64,000 bases of DNA from an uncultured Alphaproteobacteria bacterium. GTDB taxonomy: Bacteria; Pseudomonadota; Alphaproteobacteria; UBA3830. Both the position numbers and the translations under genes were made by a program. The stretch is taken from positions 19,353 to 83,352 of the forward strand of contig CALXQM010000020.1 of the NCBI GenBank assembly GCA_944390765.1. Reading direction: 5' to 3'. Of the stretch, positions 36,248-41,716 are shown piece after piece (within the stretch, counting starts at the first letter, position 1; each line of letters begins with the position of its first letter). The notes beneath the pieces are model-generated. The model saw only the letters and a program-made list of their open reading frames with translations. It was not told the DNA's origin and ran no database searches.

Positions 36248-39082
36248 TTAGATATCAGAATCAGGAAGGGCAAATGCCTTATCTCTATATGGAGTAAAAA
36301 CATATTCAAAATAATACTCCATTATTTCATTAAATTGTAATAACGTTTTTTCATATAAACTCGGCTGAATTCCTGTTTGACGAGAATTATTTAATGTATC
36401 GCAATTTTTTAAGAAATCGATAATAAGTTGAGAAAAATTTGTTATTACAGGGTTATTAGAATTAATTCCTTCTAATACTTGGTTGTATAAATTTTGTAAC
36501 TCGTATCTAATATTTGAATTTTTATCAGCAATATTTGTAAACATTCCTAAAATTTGTATGGCTTGTTGATCTTCTATAACTTTTAATGGACTGTTTTTTT
36601 CACCTTTTTTAATTCCAAGTCTAAATACACAATATTTTTGCAAAATATGACTTAAAGTTCCTGTTCCGAAAATTCTATCTCTATCTCCGAGATTTATTCC
36701 TGTTTTTAATACGGACAAATCAGCTCCATAATTACTAAATGACATAATTTCAACATATTGCATAACCCATTTTGAAGCCGGAGTTTTTATCATTTCCTTA
36801 GAATCAGGTAAAGGTTTATTACCGATAGCTTCTGTTTGAGTTTTTCTTAAATTAAATGTAATGAACGTTGTTCCTATAACATCTAAGGGTGTTCCAGTTA
36901 ATATACTACTAATGAATGGTACGGAGCCATTACTTCCGAGTAAACTAATTCCATCTGTCGCAATCATTTGAAATGCGTTTCCTAGATTTAGAGAAGAGTT
37001 ATTTTTATCTTTGCCTCTTAATTGTTCACCGCATTTATTTAATACTTCTTGTACTGTTTTTATAGACATAATGCCTGCAGTAGCTAATGGTAGTATTAAT
37101 TTACATGAAAGAAATACGCCATTTTCACTAATATGTGGACATTCTAGTGATGTATCAAGTTGAAAATTTATTCCATAAGAAGAAACGTTCATTTCTCCAG
37201 ATATCGTTTTCGCTTTTGTTTTTTTGCTTAAAGCAAAATCAGCCCTATGGGTTCCTTTTGCAAATTCTTGCAATTGAGATAATCTTTCTAACTCAATATA
37301 TGCCTGAGAGCATAATTCTATTTCTCTATCAGTTTTACATTTCATTCTTAAATTCATTAATGTTACTAACATAGACTTGAAAACGCCTTTTCTCCCTTCT
37401 GAGTTGATTAATTTTTTCCCAATCCATCTATTTTCTATTTCATGTTTAGTATTTTTTGCATCTTTATCTGATGAATTTTGAGCCAAATTTGTTAATGCAT
37501 TGATGTATTTTCTTAAATCTCCCAAAATAATGGTTATTCCATATTCATTGTTTTTTTCATTCATGTATTTATCAAATAAATTGTATTTTTGTCCGAAAAA
37601 TTTATTAATACTATCTGCTGTATAACCCTCAGCTGGATAACAATCTGGTGTGATAAAAGAAGAGAATTCTTGAAATTTATTATAAGTTATGGATTTATCA
37701 GAATATTTTACTGTAAAGCCAAGCATATCAAATAGACTTAGATCGGCTTCTATAAATTTATTACTTTCTGTGCGACTTTCTTGATTTTTGACTTTTGTAA
37801 TTTTAGGCCATTCTAATGGTACACTTAATGGTATTATTGGAACCATTTTTAAAAGTCCTTCTATATATTGAGGAAAAATAGCCAATAATTGTTTTTCGCG
37901 TAATTGCATTTCTTTACGTAATTTTACTCCTTTTTTTGCTTCTTTTTTTATTTCACCACTTAATATGCTGGTTCTTAATTGACCTGTATCAATAACTTCA
38001 TAAATAGAAAACATTAGTGCGGAGGAGGCTAATTCCCAACCTAATGTAACACCAAAATTTGCAAGTAGTTTTTGAAAACCAACATTAACACTTATTGTAT
38101 ATTTATTAGAACATGAAACTTCAAAAAATGATCCATCAGTAGCCTCCTCGCTATAGCTTGTTGTTGAACTAATTTTTACACTGGCAGGACCTGTAGAAAT
38201 AGGAATATTTGAGCCGTAATATATTCCTCTTGTTTTCTTTTGCAACTGATCTTCCATATCAGGCTTTATACGTTCTATAATTTGATCAGCAAGATTTTTA
38301 GCAATTTGTGCTTTATAAAATTCTTTCATGCCATGTATATATTGTCCAAATTTTTGAAATAAACTATCTGTAGAAAATTGAGGACACTGCTCAACAACCG
38401 CATAAACCTCTTTCAATAATGTAGATAGACTAGCCTCATAACTACCTTTAGGTTCAATAACAGTTGTTAAATACAAAAGTAAATCGTTAAGCGCTTCTTC
38501 TAATTTTGGATTCTGCTTGATAATTCCAGGGATAGTGTTTTTTCCGAAAATAAACTGACTTTTAAAATTTGAGTCTAAGAAATTAAGTAATGTATGTATA
38601 AGTGAAGCTTTTGAATTTCCAATATATAATAAATTACATTTTATTATTGGATCTATTTCTTTACTTTCAGAATCTAATTCAATTGCAATATCATTCTGTA
38701 TTAATGTCTTAAGTTCCGATAAACGTTTTTCTTTCTGATATTTTTTTTCAGGTTCAGTTAGAGTTTTGATTTCTTCTTCTAACTTTTTAATACTTTCAAG
38801 CATTATGGATTGTGCTTTTATATGATCTTCACCTAGAATACGTGTTTTATTTTTTTCGAATTCTGAGATGAATTTAGCAAGATCTATGCTTTTATGTGAT
38901 TTTGTAATAATAATTTCTGATTTTGTATTTTTAGGTTTTTTTGAAAATAATGAGAAACTTGTTTTCTTTGTTTTTGTTGAATCTTTAGTTTCTTCGGAAG
39001 TATTAGATTTTGCAAATACCGGAATATTTATTAATGACCAGCATAGTAATGATATTAATATTTGATAAGTGACTTTCTTCAT
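36248..39082 (-). CDS. Large secreted protein, unknown
   Basis: The 944-residue protein has a signal peptide (QILISLLCWSLINIPVFA) and a Lys/Ser/Thr-rich linker. A predicted coiled coil (about 80-130) is followed by a long mixed region. Segments such as GINFQLDTSLECP, VSVNVGF-like stretches and GTTFITFNLRK look beta-rich. I do not recognise a family and see no repeats or catalytic motif. The start is ATG 39082 with AGGAG upstream; an ATG at 39100 would bury the signal peptide. It could be periplasmic, outer-membrane or exported. Confidence 0.7.
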   Translation of the reverse strand: MKKVTYQILISLLCWSLINIPVFAKSNTSEETKDSTKTKKTSFSLFSKKPKNTKSEIIITKSHKSIDLAKFISEFEKNKTRILGEDHIKAQSIMLESIKKLEEEIKTLTEPEKKYQKEKRLSELKTLIQNDIAIELDSESKEIDPIIKCNLLYIGNSKASLIHTLLNFLDSNFKSQFIFGKNTIPGIIKQNPKLEEALNDLLLYLTTVIEPKGSYEASLSTLLKEVYAVVEQCPQFSTDSLFQKFGQYIHGMKEFYKAQIAKNLADQIIERIKPDMEDQLQKKTRGIYYGSNIPISTGPASVKISSTTSYSEEATDGSFFEVSCSNKYTISVNVGFQKLLANFGVTLGWELASSALMFSIYEVIDTGQLRTSILSGEIKKEAKKGVKLRKEMQLREKQLLAIFPQYIEGLLKMVPIIPLSVPLEWPKITKVKNQESRTESNKFIEADLSLFDMLGFTVKYSDKSITYNKFQEFSSFITPDCYPAEGYTADSINKFFGQKYNLFDKYMNEKNNEYGITIILGDLRKYINALTNLAQNSSDKDAKNTKHEIENRWIGKKLINSEGRKGVFKSMLVTLMNLRMKCKTDREIELCSQAYIELERLSQLQEFAKGTHRADFALSKKTKAKTISGEMNVSSYGINFQLDTSLECPHISENGVFLSCKLILPLATAGIMSIKTVQEVLNKCGEQLRGKDKNNSSLNLGNAFQMIATDGISLLGSNGSVPFISSILTGTPLDVIGTTFITFNLRKTQTEAIGNKPLPDSKEMIKTPASKWVMQYVEIMSFSNYGADLSVLKTGINLGDRDRIFGTGTLSHILQKYCVFRLGIKKGEKNSPLKVIEDQQAIQILGMFTNIADKNSNIRYELQNLYNQVLEGINSNNPVITNFSQLIIDFLKNCDTLNNSRQTGIQPSLYEKTLLQFNEIMEYYFEYVFTPYRDKAFALPDSDI

Positions 39083-39177
39083 ATATATTGCTCCTACCAT
39101 TTTATTATATTGTATAAACAGTAAAAAAAGTGTAAAGATTTGATATTTTTAATAAATATCATAATAATTGAATTTTA

Positions 39178-40665
39178 TCAGAAAAACTTTCTAATATAAG
39201 AGAATATAGTTTGATTGGCTTTTTGAGGAATATAGAAATCTATTACACCTGATTCATTGCTTTTTAATGAATAAATTTCTCTACCATAAGCATCAAAAAC
39301 TGAAGCGATACCAAATCCTGTTGCTCTAATCAGGGGTAATCCTTCTTCCACAGCTCTTGTTCTAACTATTTGCAGATGTTGAATAAGAGCGTTAGAATAG
39401 CCAAACCAAGAATCATTAGTAATATTAATAATCACATCTCCGTCTTCTGATTTAGGCATAAATTCACTTGTAAATATTGCTTCATAACAAATGGCTAAAA
39501 TTATTTTAATATTTTTTAACTTAACAATATTAGGTTTATTTCCGACATCGAAATCTCCTATACTATTAGCAACAGCTTGAAAGTTTTTTGGAATATATTC
39601 CCGCAACGGAATATATTCGCCGAATGGAACCAAATGACGTTTATCATATCTATTAACCACATTACTATTGTTGTCTATAATCACGACACTATTGTATATT
39701 TTACCGGTTACATTGTCCTTGCGGACAACTCCAGTTATTAAATACTCTTCTGGAAATAATTTTGATGATAGTTTTTCTTTTAAATACTGAAAATTATCAT
39801 GAAATAAATAAGGAACTGAAGCTTCTGACCAAATAATAAAATCTAAATGACCTTGGTTTTCATATTTATTATTATTTAAATTAAAAGTAGTATTCAAATG
39901 TTTGCTGTATTCTAAATATGATTCTAGATGCTGAAATCTTAATTCTTTATCCATACGTTCTTTTTGTCCAGTATTAAGTTTGACTATTCTAGCTGTATAA
40001 TGTGTAAAAAAAGTTGGATTTTTATATAACCTATAATAACCGAATGAAAATAATATTATAAATATTAATGATATAATAAGTAGCAATGGGCAATATTTTT
40101 TTTTCAATTTATATTGATACATGATAATACCAATAAATGTTCCTATTAAAAGTGTAATAAATGTTTGTCCATATATTCCCCATAAACATAAAGGTTGTAT
40201 AGCGATATCACTGAAATTCCAAATATATCCAGGTAGCAACCATGGAAAAGCGGGGAACCATTGCCCACATATATAAATCATAAAAAAATTACTAAGAATA
40301 TAAATAATTCCTGCAGAATAAATAGTTTTCCCATATTTTTTTGTTAAATAAATAGCCGGTAAAAAATATAAAGATAAAAATAAAGGAACGAATAACAAAG
40401 CAACAGGCATTAAAATTAAATATTGCTTTAAATCAAAGCTAAGCGGAATGACTAGCCAATATAAATTAAAAACAAAAAAACTACTCCAATAATATAAGAT
40501 TTTTAATGATAAATTTTTTACAGAATAATTGTTTATGAATAACTTAAAAAATAACCAACCAAATGATAGAAAAAAGCATGGGAAAATGAAAAAAGGAGGG
40601 AAACTTAAAGCAGCAATAATTCCCCCAAAACAAAATTTAAGATATTCTAATTGCCTATACTTCAT
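39178..40665 (-). CDS. lnt: Apolipoprotein N-acyltransferase
   Basis: Lnt adds the third acyl chain to lipoproteins at the periplasmic face of the inner membrane. Eight or so N-terminal membrane segments are followed by a nitrilase-type domain. It carries the catalytic Glu (IIWSEASVPYLF), Lys (KRHLVPFGEY) and Cys (ILAICYEAIF), and a C-terminal segment with FGIASVFDAYGRE. The 495-residue length is normal. It overlaps the downstream end of the dcd-like gene by 4 bases. Confidence 0.95.
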   Translation of the reverse strand: MKYRQLEYLKFCFGGIIAALSFPPFFIFPCFFLSFGWLFFKLFINNYSVKNLSLKILYYWSSFFVFNLYWLVIPLSFDLKQYLILMPVALLFVPLFLSLYFLPAIYLTKKYGKTIYSAGIIYILSNFFMIYICGQWFPAFPWLLPGYIWNFSDIAIQPLCLWGIYGQTFITLLIGTFIGIIMYQYKLKKKYCPLLLIISLIFIILFSFGYYRLYKNPTFFTHYTARIVKLNTGQKERMDKELRFQHLESYLEYSKHLNTTFNLNNNKYENQGHLDFIIWSEASVPYLFHDNFQYLKEKLSSKLFPEEYLITGVVRKDNVTGKIYNSVVIIDNNSNVVNRYDKRHLVPFGEYIPLREYIPKNFQAVANSIGDFDVGNKPNIVKLKNIKIILAICYEAIFTSEFMPKSEDGDVIINITNDSWFGYSNALIQHLQIVRTRAVEEGLPLIRATGFGIASVFDAYGREIYSLKSNESGVIDFYIPQKANQTIFSYIRKFF

Positions 40666-41183
40666 TTAAAATCTTGGTACATTTTGGATTCTATTGGTCC
40701 CTTCGAATCTTTGTATTTACCTTCATATTTTTTACCGATATTTCCAAATACTTTCCAAAATGTAACCTGACCTATTTGCATTCCCGGATATACTGTGACA
40801 GGTTGAACGGCATTTAATTGTAATGTTAGCTGACTAATTGCTCCGAGATCTATTAAATCAGCTGTAATGTTAATAAATAAACCAAGACGTCCAATAGACG
40901 ATCGTCCTCTTATAACGGGAACAAAAACATCACTTCCTAAAGTTTCTTTCGTATGTGCTAGATAAACTGTTCCTGGGGCTAATGTCAGTCCACTATCTGG
41001 TATATTAATTTCCCTTACATCATTTCTTTTTTTTGCATCTAATACATAGTCACTATATACTAATAGCTTATTCCCTAAAGTAAAATTATATGAATTTGGA
41101 TTTAATTGTGATACATTAAAAGGATCAATTATAATTTTTTTTTCTTCTACATTTTTAAATATTTCACTTCCTGTTAAAATCAT
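40662..41183 (-). CDS. dcd: dCTP deaminase-like protein 1, keeps RSSxxR but lost catalytic Glu
   Basis: The 173-residue protein belongs to the dCTP deaminase/dUTPase fold. It keeps the phosphate-binding and catalytic-base motif R94-S95-S96-x-x-R99 (VIRGRSSIGRLGLF) and Asp112 (DLIDLGA). The catalytic glutamate position (E138 in E. coli Dcd, within LTLEL) is Gln122 (LTLQL, codon CAA at 40818-40820). Alone it is probably inactive as a deaminase. It lies 11 bases downstream of its paralogue, which has the opposite pattern. It may form a mixed trimer; this is inference. Confidence 0.85.
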   Translation of the reverse strand: MILTGSEIFKNVEEKKIIIDPFNVSQLNPNSYNFTLGNKLLVYSDYVLDAKKRNDVREINIPDSGLTLAPGTVYLAHTKETLGSDVFVPVIRGRSSIGRLGLFINITADLIDLGAISQLTLQLNAVQPVTVYPGMQIGQVTFWKVFGNIGKKYEGKYKDSKGPIESKMYQDFK

Positions 41184-41194
41184 ATTTCTTATCC

Positions 41195-41716
41195 TTAATT
41201 AAACTCCTTATAAATTTCGCTAGATTTAGCTTCAGAAAACTTATCATATTTCCCGTTATAAAACATTTTCTTATCACCCTCAGTCATCCAAAATGATACC
41301 TGCCCAATAGGCATCATTGGATAAATTCTTATAGGTTGAACAGCTTTTAGTTCCAATGTCCATTTGTGCTTTGCACCTAGATTACCTAAATCTGCAGTAA
41401 TTTGTAGGAATAATCCTAGTTTTCCTAACTCTGTTTTTCCTATTAGTAATGGGACAAAAACATCGCTACCTATTTCTTCATAAGTATTAGCTAGATATGT
41501 TTTATTAGGAGAAAGGATATATCCATTATCATTAAAATCGATTTCATAATATGAAGTTTGTTTCTTTGGATCTACAGGCAAATCTTCAATTTCTAGTAAT
41601 TTTTTATCTATACGATAGTCACAGCTATTTGGATTTAGTAATTCTTCAGAAAATGGGGATATGCAGATATTTCCATTAGCTACATTTTTTAAAATTTCAT
41701 TTCTAGCCAGTATCAT
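41195..41716 (-). CDS. dCTP deaminase-like protein 2, keeps catalytic Glu but lost RSSxxR
   Basis: This protein is also 173 residues, collinear with its neighbour. It keeps the catalytic glutamate E122 (WTLEL), but positions 94-99 read K-T-E-L-G-K instead of R-S-S-x-G-R, and Asp112 is Asn (DLGNLGA). Each substitution was confirmed from the codons. It starts upstream of the other paralogue in the same unit. In the dCTP deaminase fold the active sites lie at subunit interfaces, so a shared site between paralogues is plausible but unproven. Alternatively, both may have drifted to a nucleotide-binding or regulatory role. Confidence 0.85.
   Translation of the reverse strand: MILARNEILKNVANGNICISPFSEELLNPNSCDYRIDKKLLEIEDLPVDPKKQTSYYEIDFNDNGYILSPNKTYLANTYEEIGSDVFVPLLIGKTELGKLGLFLQITADLGNLGAKHKWTLELKAVQPIRIYPMMPIGQVSFWMTEGDKKMFYNGKYDKFSEAKSSEIYKEFN

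Follow-up and report, generated by a model that had tools for sequence, protein, structure and literature searches.

The stretch of DNA analysed here (64,000 nucleotides of contig CALXQM010000020.1, positions 19,353 to 83,352, from the uncultured alphaproteobacterial assembly GCA_944390765.1; hereafter, the window) carries on its minus strand two adjacent genes of the deoxycytidine triphosphate (dCTP) deaminase family, DCD. Their products, designated subunit A and subunit B, differ at two positions of motif III: A has Glu122 and no Asp112, and B has Asp112 and no Glu122. The features of the pair are as follows.

41195..41716, minus strand: subunit A, DCD-family protein of 173 aa with Glu122, Asn112 and a degenerate motif II, K94-T95-E96-L-G-K99 (open reading frame, PF22769, motif table, AlphaFold)
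41402..41437, minus strand: codons 94-105 of A, from motif II (K94-T95-E96..K99) up to motif III (open reading frame coordinates)
41342..41383, minus strand: codons 112-125 of A, the Asn112 to Glu122 region, motif III hairpin (open reading frame coordinates)
41184..41194, minus strand: gap of 11 nt between A and B (coordinates and sequence)
40662..41183, minus strand: subunit B, DCD-family protein of 173 aa with motif II R94-S95-S96-I-G-R99, Asp112, a C-terminal lid and Gln122 (open reading frame, PF22769, TIGR02274, AlphaFold)
40869..40904, minus strand: codons 94-105 of B, from the intact motif II (RSSIGR) up to motif III (open reading frame coordinates)
40809..40850, minus strand: codons 112-125 of B, the Asp112 to Gln122 region, motif III hairpin (open reading frame coordinates)

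The original prediction, made from the sequence alone, had placed here two proteins of 173 residues that align without gaps, the downstream copy with R94-S95-S96-R99, Asp112 and Gln122 and the upstream copy with K94-T95-E96-K99, Asn112 and Glu122. The open reading frames and the motif table agree with it on all these points, and the level of identity between A and B is 47% over 172 aligned residues with 0 gaps. The common strand and the 11-nt gap are consistent with co-transcription of the pair. Both proteins exceed the cut-off of PF22769 (27 bits), A with 90.7 bits (1.3e-25) and B with 128.5 bits (3.1e-37); for TIGR02274 'dCTP deaminase' (cut-off 92.8 bits), B scores above (100.8) and A below (68.7). 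The catalytic Glu and the RSSxxR motif, which together in one chain define a dCTP deaminase (EC 3.5.4.13), are combined in neither window protein, although many relatives of A outside the window's lineage carry both. B retains RSSxxR and Asp without Glu, the motif combination of P45-like deoxyuridine triphosphatases (dUTPases).

In the protein searches, A had 245 matches and B had 1414. For the genome scan and the taxonomic surveys, one alignment of 24 A-type proteins was used as the query. The scan of genomes of named species yielded 165 matches and returned 79 loci from Holosporaceae, other Alphaproteobacteria, Chlamydiae, Verrucomicrobia, Desulfuromonas, Cytophagales, Bacillota (Paenibacillus, Clostridia, Bacilli, Enterococcus), Actinomycetota, Saccharibacteria and other candidate-phyla bacteria. 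A match was found in 28 of 49 genomes of the window's order, in 26 of 196 genomes of the class of a Clostridiales genome, in 238 of 249 Streptomycetaceae (mostly with scores at the level of ordinary DCD proteins), in 4 of 244 genomes of a Saccharibacteria class and in 52 of 286 genomes of the phylum of a Dojkabacteria genome (scores mostly low); from the last four surveys, the counts below draw on part of the matches listed. A further 40 stretches, chosen by hand, mostly from the survey lists, were fetched and read. After profile matches of fewer than 90 positions had been dropped and loci sharing sequence merged, the locus table contained 157 distinct loci. The genes were assigned to the classes A, B and S (complete) by residues 112 and 122, and a gene was called single when no other DCD gene lies within the fetched stretch. 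The loci were sought mainly with A-type sequences, and lone B genes outside the window's order may be under-sampled.

The division of Asp112 and Glu122 between the two proteins recurs throughout this material. Among the best 120 of the 245 matches to A, Glu122 is present in 120/120 and residue 112 is Asn (89), His (27), Gln (3) or, in one case, a gap; among the best 120 of the 1414 matches to B, Asp112 is present in 120/120 and residue 122 is Gln (114) or Met (6). The locus table, where the residue counts within classes partly follow from the sorting by these two positions, shows Glu122 in 114/114 A genes with His (57), Asn (39), Gln (18) and never Asp at position 112, and Asp112 in 113/113 B genes with Gln (86), Met (22), Thr (3), His (2) and never Glu at position 122. 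Asp and Glu in one chain, as in the bifunctional type, occur in 0 of the 240 listed proteins and in 0 of the 227 A and B genes, the latter being sorted by these residues. Two facts are independent of the sorting: no two-gene locus has a complete or a doubly lost member, and A and B are separate in the phylogenetic tree. The split is not due to chance, as 120/120 proteins of each list show it and so do the 114 A and 113 B genes in the locus table.

One A and one B gene make up 109 of the 157 loci; three more contain A, B and a complete gene, and 42 contain a single complete gene. The remainder comprises one locus in which a second B-like gene accompanies A and B, one lone A and one remnant. In stretches with one intact gene, both residues are present in 42 of 43 cases, the sole exception being the lone A of L055. 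The genes outside pairs taken for comparison from the Clostridiales survey have RSSxxR, Asp112 and Glu122 together in 26/26 full-length cases (17 of the nearest type and nine of the Bacillus halodurans type; one lies in a genome with the triple locus described below). A paralogue with the full motif set, named in the original prediction as evidence against its proposal, is absent among the A and B genes of all 113 pairs; the complete genes of the three loci mentioned above are third members. Such a gene follows immediately after A and B in Paenibacillus tundrae and in a Desulfuromonas metagenome-assembled genome (L068/L137, L082/L157). Several pairs can also occur in one genome: G103 has two A/B sets (L155, L153), and G428 has three (L194, L195, L196), in one of which A and B are ~9 kb apart, as well as a complete dcd-type gene ~6.5 kb from another of its pairs.

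The two genes also stay together. B was found in the same fetched stretch for 113 of 114 A genes, and for the lone A (L055, 6001-7015) a strong match to B lies on a different contig of its genome; inspection by eye indicated a thymidine-kinase-like gene directly after this A. All 109 two-gene loci have both genes on the same strand, with A first in 95, and in 106 of them the genes are at most 100 nt apart by profile match. Pairs span many bacterial phyla; the pair REMIM1_RS36010 and REMIM1_RS27305 of Rhizobium etli Mim1 plasmid pRetMIM1e and that of a plasmid of Streptomyces sp. NBC_00239 both show the split. On the Rhizobium sullae plasmid pWSM1592_3 (L238, 7001-7453), an A-type match lies where the PLSDB table has no gene, and the adjoining gene is annotated as dcd.

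In the window's order, 25 of 49 genomes have the two genes side by side, with one of them truncated at the contig end in G037; none of the 49 has just one intact member of the pair, and G007 and G009 each carry a single complete DCD-type gene. Apart from the truncated gene of G037, the sole partial copy among these genomes is a remnant in G026 (L110, G026:C38:23552-23851), which has an A-like start, a B-like end and no motif III, and looks as if a deletion had joined the two paralogues. This remnant and the small size of the window's genome (1.03 Mb) could suggest that a duplicated gene is simply decaying in a reduced genome. However, the same split in 113/113 pairs across phyla, in open frames and at a common position in the tree, contradicts this explanation, and we reject it as extremely improbable.

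The tree was built from 117 of 272 sequences, thinned by identity. The A proteins form one clade (support 94 in the Shimodaira–Hasegawa-like approximate likelihood ratio test, SH-aLRT), A and B group together (SH-aLRT 97), and 15 of the 17 complete genes lie outside this group. The topology fits one duplication after which the two genes would have spread together. Pairwise distances among A proteins correlate with those among their B partners (r 0.847, a value reached in 0 of 1000 permutations); with near pairs excluded, r is 0.63. The complete gene of L197 (4097-4609, genome G979), which has both Asp112 and Glu122 and stands alone in its stretch, is located on the B side of the tree; it may be either a form preceding the split or a reversion.

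Motif II behaves differently. Measured by S/T95 and R99, it is lost in 21 of 114 A genes, namely in the window's genus, one other Holosporaceae locus, Dojkabacteria-type genomes and Streptomyces, and it is intact beside Glu122, without Asp112, in the other 93. B retains both residues almost throughout, S95 in 112 of 113 genes and R99 likewise in 112 of 113. When the motif II columns were removed, the tree of A (102 rows) needed four changes, and its well-supported branches force at least two. The Asp112/Glu122 split is the older core of the pattern, and the loss of RSSxxR in A is younger. Of the reciprocal losses, the Asp112/Glu122 split is conserved in all pairs read, but the loss of motif II is confined to those 21 A genes; the full reciprocal pattern of the window pair is a lineage-specific extreme.

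The C-terminal lid is likewise kept in B and mostly absent from A. The weighted frequency of the lid residue K156 is 0.94 in B, 0.84 in complete relatives (n=23) and 0.26 in A. AlphaFold models of the single chains, made separately for A and B, predict the DCD fold for both proteins, with a predicted local distance difference test score (pLDDT) of 85.5 for A and 93.3 for B. The confidence in the last three blocks of the tail is low in A (59, 50, 44) and high in B (90, 94, 89). The best Foldseek matches in the PDB are the dCTP deaminase-dUTPase 4a6a for A and the B. halodurans dCTP deaminase-dUTPase 4xjc for B. Given the motif, lid and tail data, A retains motif III with Glu122, and B retains motif II, the lid and Asp112.

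The residue-by-residue geometry of the dUTPase site probably holds also in DCD enzymes. In trimeric dUTPases, motif II of an active site comes from the subunit next to the one that supplies motif III (PMC12524310, PMC4827122), and in human dUTPase the replacement of the motif III Asp by Asn stops catalysis and leaves binding unaffected (PMC4827122). The P45 protein of Pyrococcus furiosus is reported to hydrolyse dUTP efficiently and to lack deaminase activity (PMC5122711). We propose, with a probability of about 0.6, that A and B assemble into one mixed trimer in which Glu122 of A meets RSSxxR of B in a site of the deaminase type. Because Asp112 and Glu122 lie on one hairpin of the same chain, a site of these proteins can hold one or the other and not both, and a mixed trimer would have two kinds of site. 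We infer that the ring would be AB2, one A with two B. The site made of A-Glu122 and B-RSSxxR is predicted to be a deaminase, and the site made of B-Asp112 and B-RSSxxR a dUTPase-like hydrolase, as in archaeal P45; the third site would be degenerate and may decay. The predicted substrate is a cytosine nucleotide.

The comparative data are best fitted by a mixed trimer with shared sites: every pair read has the reciprocal split, the genes are nearly always adjacent, and motif II of A has decayed in several lineages while Glu122 of A and motif II of B stay fixed. The original prediction had called an obligate mixed trimer, with sites built from two half-dead subunits, conceivable. The mixed assembly is retained here, but the two losses in motif III do not complete each other within one site, since both residues share a hairpin, and 'half-dead' may be wrong for B because P45, a reported dUTPase, has the same motif set. 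One triple locus (L075/L191) is suggestive of a mixed ring. Its A has KSSxxR, H112 and E122, its first B has a broken motif II (ILSxxQ) with D112 and H122, and its second B-like gene has RSGxxR, Q112 and Q122; of the two possible ring orders, only A, second B, first B would join the broken halves in this one locus.

The pair might instead form two separate homotrimers, A only deaminating and B only hydrolysing, kept together as sequential steps. B shares its motif set with P45, which belongs to the same family and is a dUTPase, and A is without the Asp that cannot become Asn in human dUTPase without stopping hydrolysis (PMC4827122); motif II is kept in 93 of 114 A genes, and six of 27 paired genomes show no other DCD-family or trimeric dUTPase match at E 1e-5. 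However, motif II and the lid of A have been lost in several lineages, including that of the window, while Glu122 is fixed. In those lineages, an A homotrimer would lack the residues presumed to hold the phosphates. Moreover, a further strong full-length DCD-type match is present in 11 and a trimeric dUTPase in 16 of the 27 paired genomes, where the pair would not be needed for this step. Two homotrimers are considered rather unlikely.

The distribution of motif II and the lid also bears on a regulatory role, in which B (or A) would be a nucleotide-sensing pseudo-subunit setting the activity of its partner, much as deoxythymidine triphosphate (dTTP) does in ordinary dCTP deaminases. Regulation by dTTP is cooperative and acts via the central channel (PMC4827122), and B retains motif II and the lid without Glu. 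On the other hand, Asp112, which is catalytic in dUTPases, is invariant in 113/113 B genes, and a pure sensor has no obvious need for it. The B class was sorted partly by Asp112, yet the only paired B-like gene without this residue is the second one of the triple locus L191. Motif II decays in A where that of B does not. A regulatory subunit appears improbable.

Several observations weigh against the mixed trimer. Two complete genes fall within the A+B group: the viral L084 branches at the base, and L197 belongs to the B side. The correlation of A and B distances is also expected in part from shared descent alone. Three Streptomyces pairs are 7-10 kb apart, and A and B of the L055 genome lie on different contigs. 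The loss of motif II in A may represent as few as two events, and since 93 of 114 A genes keep motif II, an A homotrimer is possible in those lineages. In dCTP deaminases, the sites lie between subunits as well, but the passages cited name the donor of motif II for dUTPases only (PMC12524310, PMC4827122).

The fold and motifs II and III are shared with the homotrimeric Dcd enzymes (TIGR02274; Escherichia coli 1xs1) and with the bifunctional enzymes of Methanocaldococcus jannaschii (1ogh), Mycobacterium tuberculosis (2qxx) and B. halodurans (4xjc). These have one gene, one kind of subunit and both Asp and Glu in each chain, whereas the pair divides the two residues between paralogues. Archaeal P45 (P. 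furiosus, 9ln0, annotated as dCTP deaminase) has a B-like set of RSSxxR, Asp and Met in place of Glu; its identity with B is 25% in a structural alignment and, unlike B, it stands alone as far as is known. The two-domain Dcd of Alphaproteobacteria (PRK07559/NF005734, PF06559; Agrobacterium tumefaciens 2r9q) resembles the pair in that its fused copies show complementary decay. Its N half has KSSTGR in 10 of 10 loci read, and its C half (five of those 10 loci) lacks RSSxxR and has Asp, Glu and a YQxQ tail. It is, however, a fusion from another subfamily with Glu in both halves, a lost motif II and no Asp112/Glu122 exchange. With NF005734 (cut-off 283), B scores 17.3 and A gives no match, and the window's genome contains no match to the two-domain Dcd at E 1e-30. 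A link to it was rejected; it is a parallel case.

Complementary losses in two paralogues are also known from trypanosome deoxyhypusine synthase, which makes up one active hetero-oligomer with its inactive paralogue; its fold and reaction are unrelated to those of the pair. Within the superfamily, the monomeric herpesvirus dUTPases derive from a duplicated ancestor whose copies kept complementary motifs, leaving one site (PMC12524310). They are single fused chains of eukaryotic viruses, while the pair consists of two separate bacterial proteins. The pair does in trans what the two-domain Dcd and the herpesvirus dUTPases do in fused form, and the residues divided differ. The original prediction knew of no described pair of this kind, and a description of such a split dCTP deaminase pair was likewise not found in the literature searched, which lay mostly outside subscription papers.

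Members of the dUTPase/dCTP deaminase superfamily are described either as homotrimers or as fused copies. We put forward, tentatively and as slightly more probably wrong than right, the wider proposal that the pair represents an undescribed branch of obligately heteromeric dCTP deaminases, in which one ancient duplication divided the Asp/Glu chemistry, a two-gene module became established across many phyla, each ring has chemically different sites, and a special cytosine nucleotide is processed in dedicated nucleotide or nucleoside pathways. If true, this branch would be a natural experiment in the transition from homomer to obligate heteromer and would show how deamination and hydrolysis can occupy separate sites of one ring. 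Where source annotations give the subunits a name, it is often 'dCTP deaminase', a label that is probably wrong for each subunit alone.

The genome of the window encodes another Dcd-type protein on contig C12 (L002) and has a trimeric dUTPase match on C15, so that the pair is extra in this genome and dCTP for thymidylate synthesis need not be its substrate. Among 27 other paired genomes, 11 have a further strong full-length DCD-type match (a weak one in G106 was not counted), 16 a trimeric dUTPase and six neither; this tally covers trimeric dUTPases, the all-alpha type being outside the search, and many of the genomes are metagenome-assembled and may be incomplete. A general role as replacement for a missing Dcd or dUTPase was rejected because the window's genome has both, though those six genomes show neither.

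The gene next in the run after B is located as follows.

39178..40665, minus strand: lnt-like gene (open reading frame; 4-nt overlap with the end of B)

We take it to encode an apolipoprotein N-acyltransferase-like protein. The transcription order in the window is presumably alaS-like, pseudouridine-synthase-like, A, B and lnt-like. The lnt-like neighbour group was found again in 24 fetched loci of the Holosporaceae type, including two from the window's own genome; the gene is probably not part of the function of the pair. Downstream of this run, the minus strand has an open reading frame of 950 aa (36248-39100 of the window) with a possible N-terminal secretion signal by eye.

Outside Holosporaceae, the neighbours include P-loop proteins with deoxynucleoside monophosphate kinase matches below the cut-off (a group of 23 genes), NUDIX-type regulators, radical SAM proteins, glycosyltransferases, methyltransferases, LD-carboxypeptidases and proteins with an alanyl-tRNA synthetase match below the cut-off. 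These neighbours in other phyla are suggestive of chemistry on nucleotides or nucleosides.

An antiviral nucleotide depleter or sensor, one of the alternatives in the original prediction, could agree with the patchy distribution over many phyla, with the 28 plasmid records that carry matches, some of which are not pairs, and with the actinobacterial locus L072, where a protein upstream of the pair has a TIR_2 match (its relative in L058 has no Pfam match). Nevertheless, no model of PADLOC-DB matches A or B at E 0.01, the Holosporaceae pair adjoins the same lnt-like gene in the 24 fetched loci, and the neighbours elsewhere look biosynthetic. Viral contigs gave one relative only, which has both Asp and Glu, and six phage records are distant (31-36% identity). 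A phage or defence origin was accordingly rejected for little support, and the antiviral role is considered very improbable. The long protein of L072 (3433-5415) has its TIR_2 match near the C-terminus; its neighbour group is also present in L058, L067 and L074, and in L072 and L058 its gene is separated from the pair by a kinase-like one.

The pair marks uncharacterised clusters with kinase-like, radical SAM, glycosyltransferase and aminoacyl-ligase-like genes, which may make unusual nucleotides. On the plasmid of Streptomyces sp. NBC_00239 (L235, NZ_CP108096.1, 150611-164905), a phosphodiesterase, a TauD-type dioxygenase, A, B, a PIG-L deacetylase, WbqC, a glycosyltransferase and an aminoacyl-tRNA-ligase-related gene follow in a row. 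Further along, within ~9 kb, come a second ligase-related gene, an LD-carboxypeptidase, another glycosyltransferase and two radical SAM genes; this cluster looks biosynthetic. In R. etli Mim1, the pair is followed by a methyltransferase gene, with a NUDIX gene two genes on. The radical SAM neighbour group, present in seven loci, has weak matches to viperin and pVip, which offers a lead towards chain-terminator chemistry of the viperin type for this neighbour.

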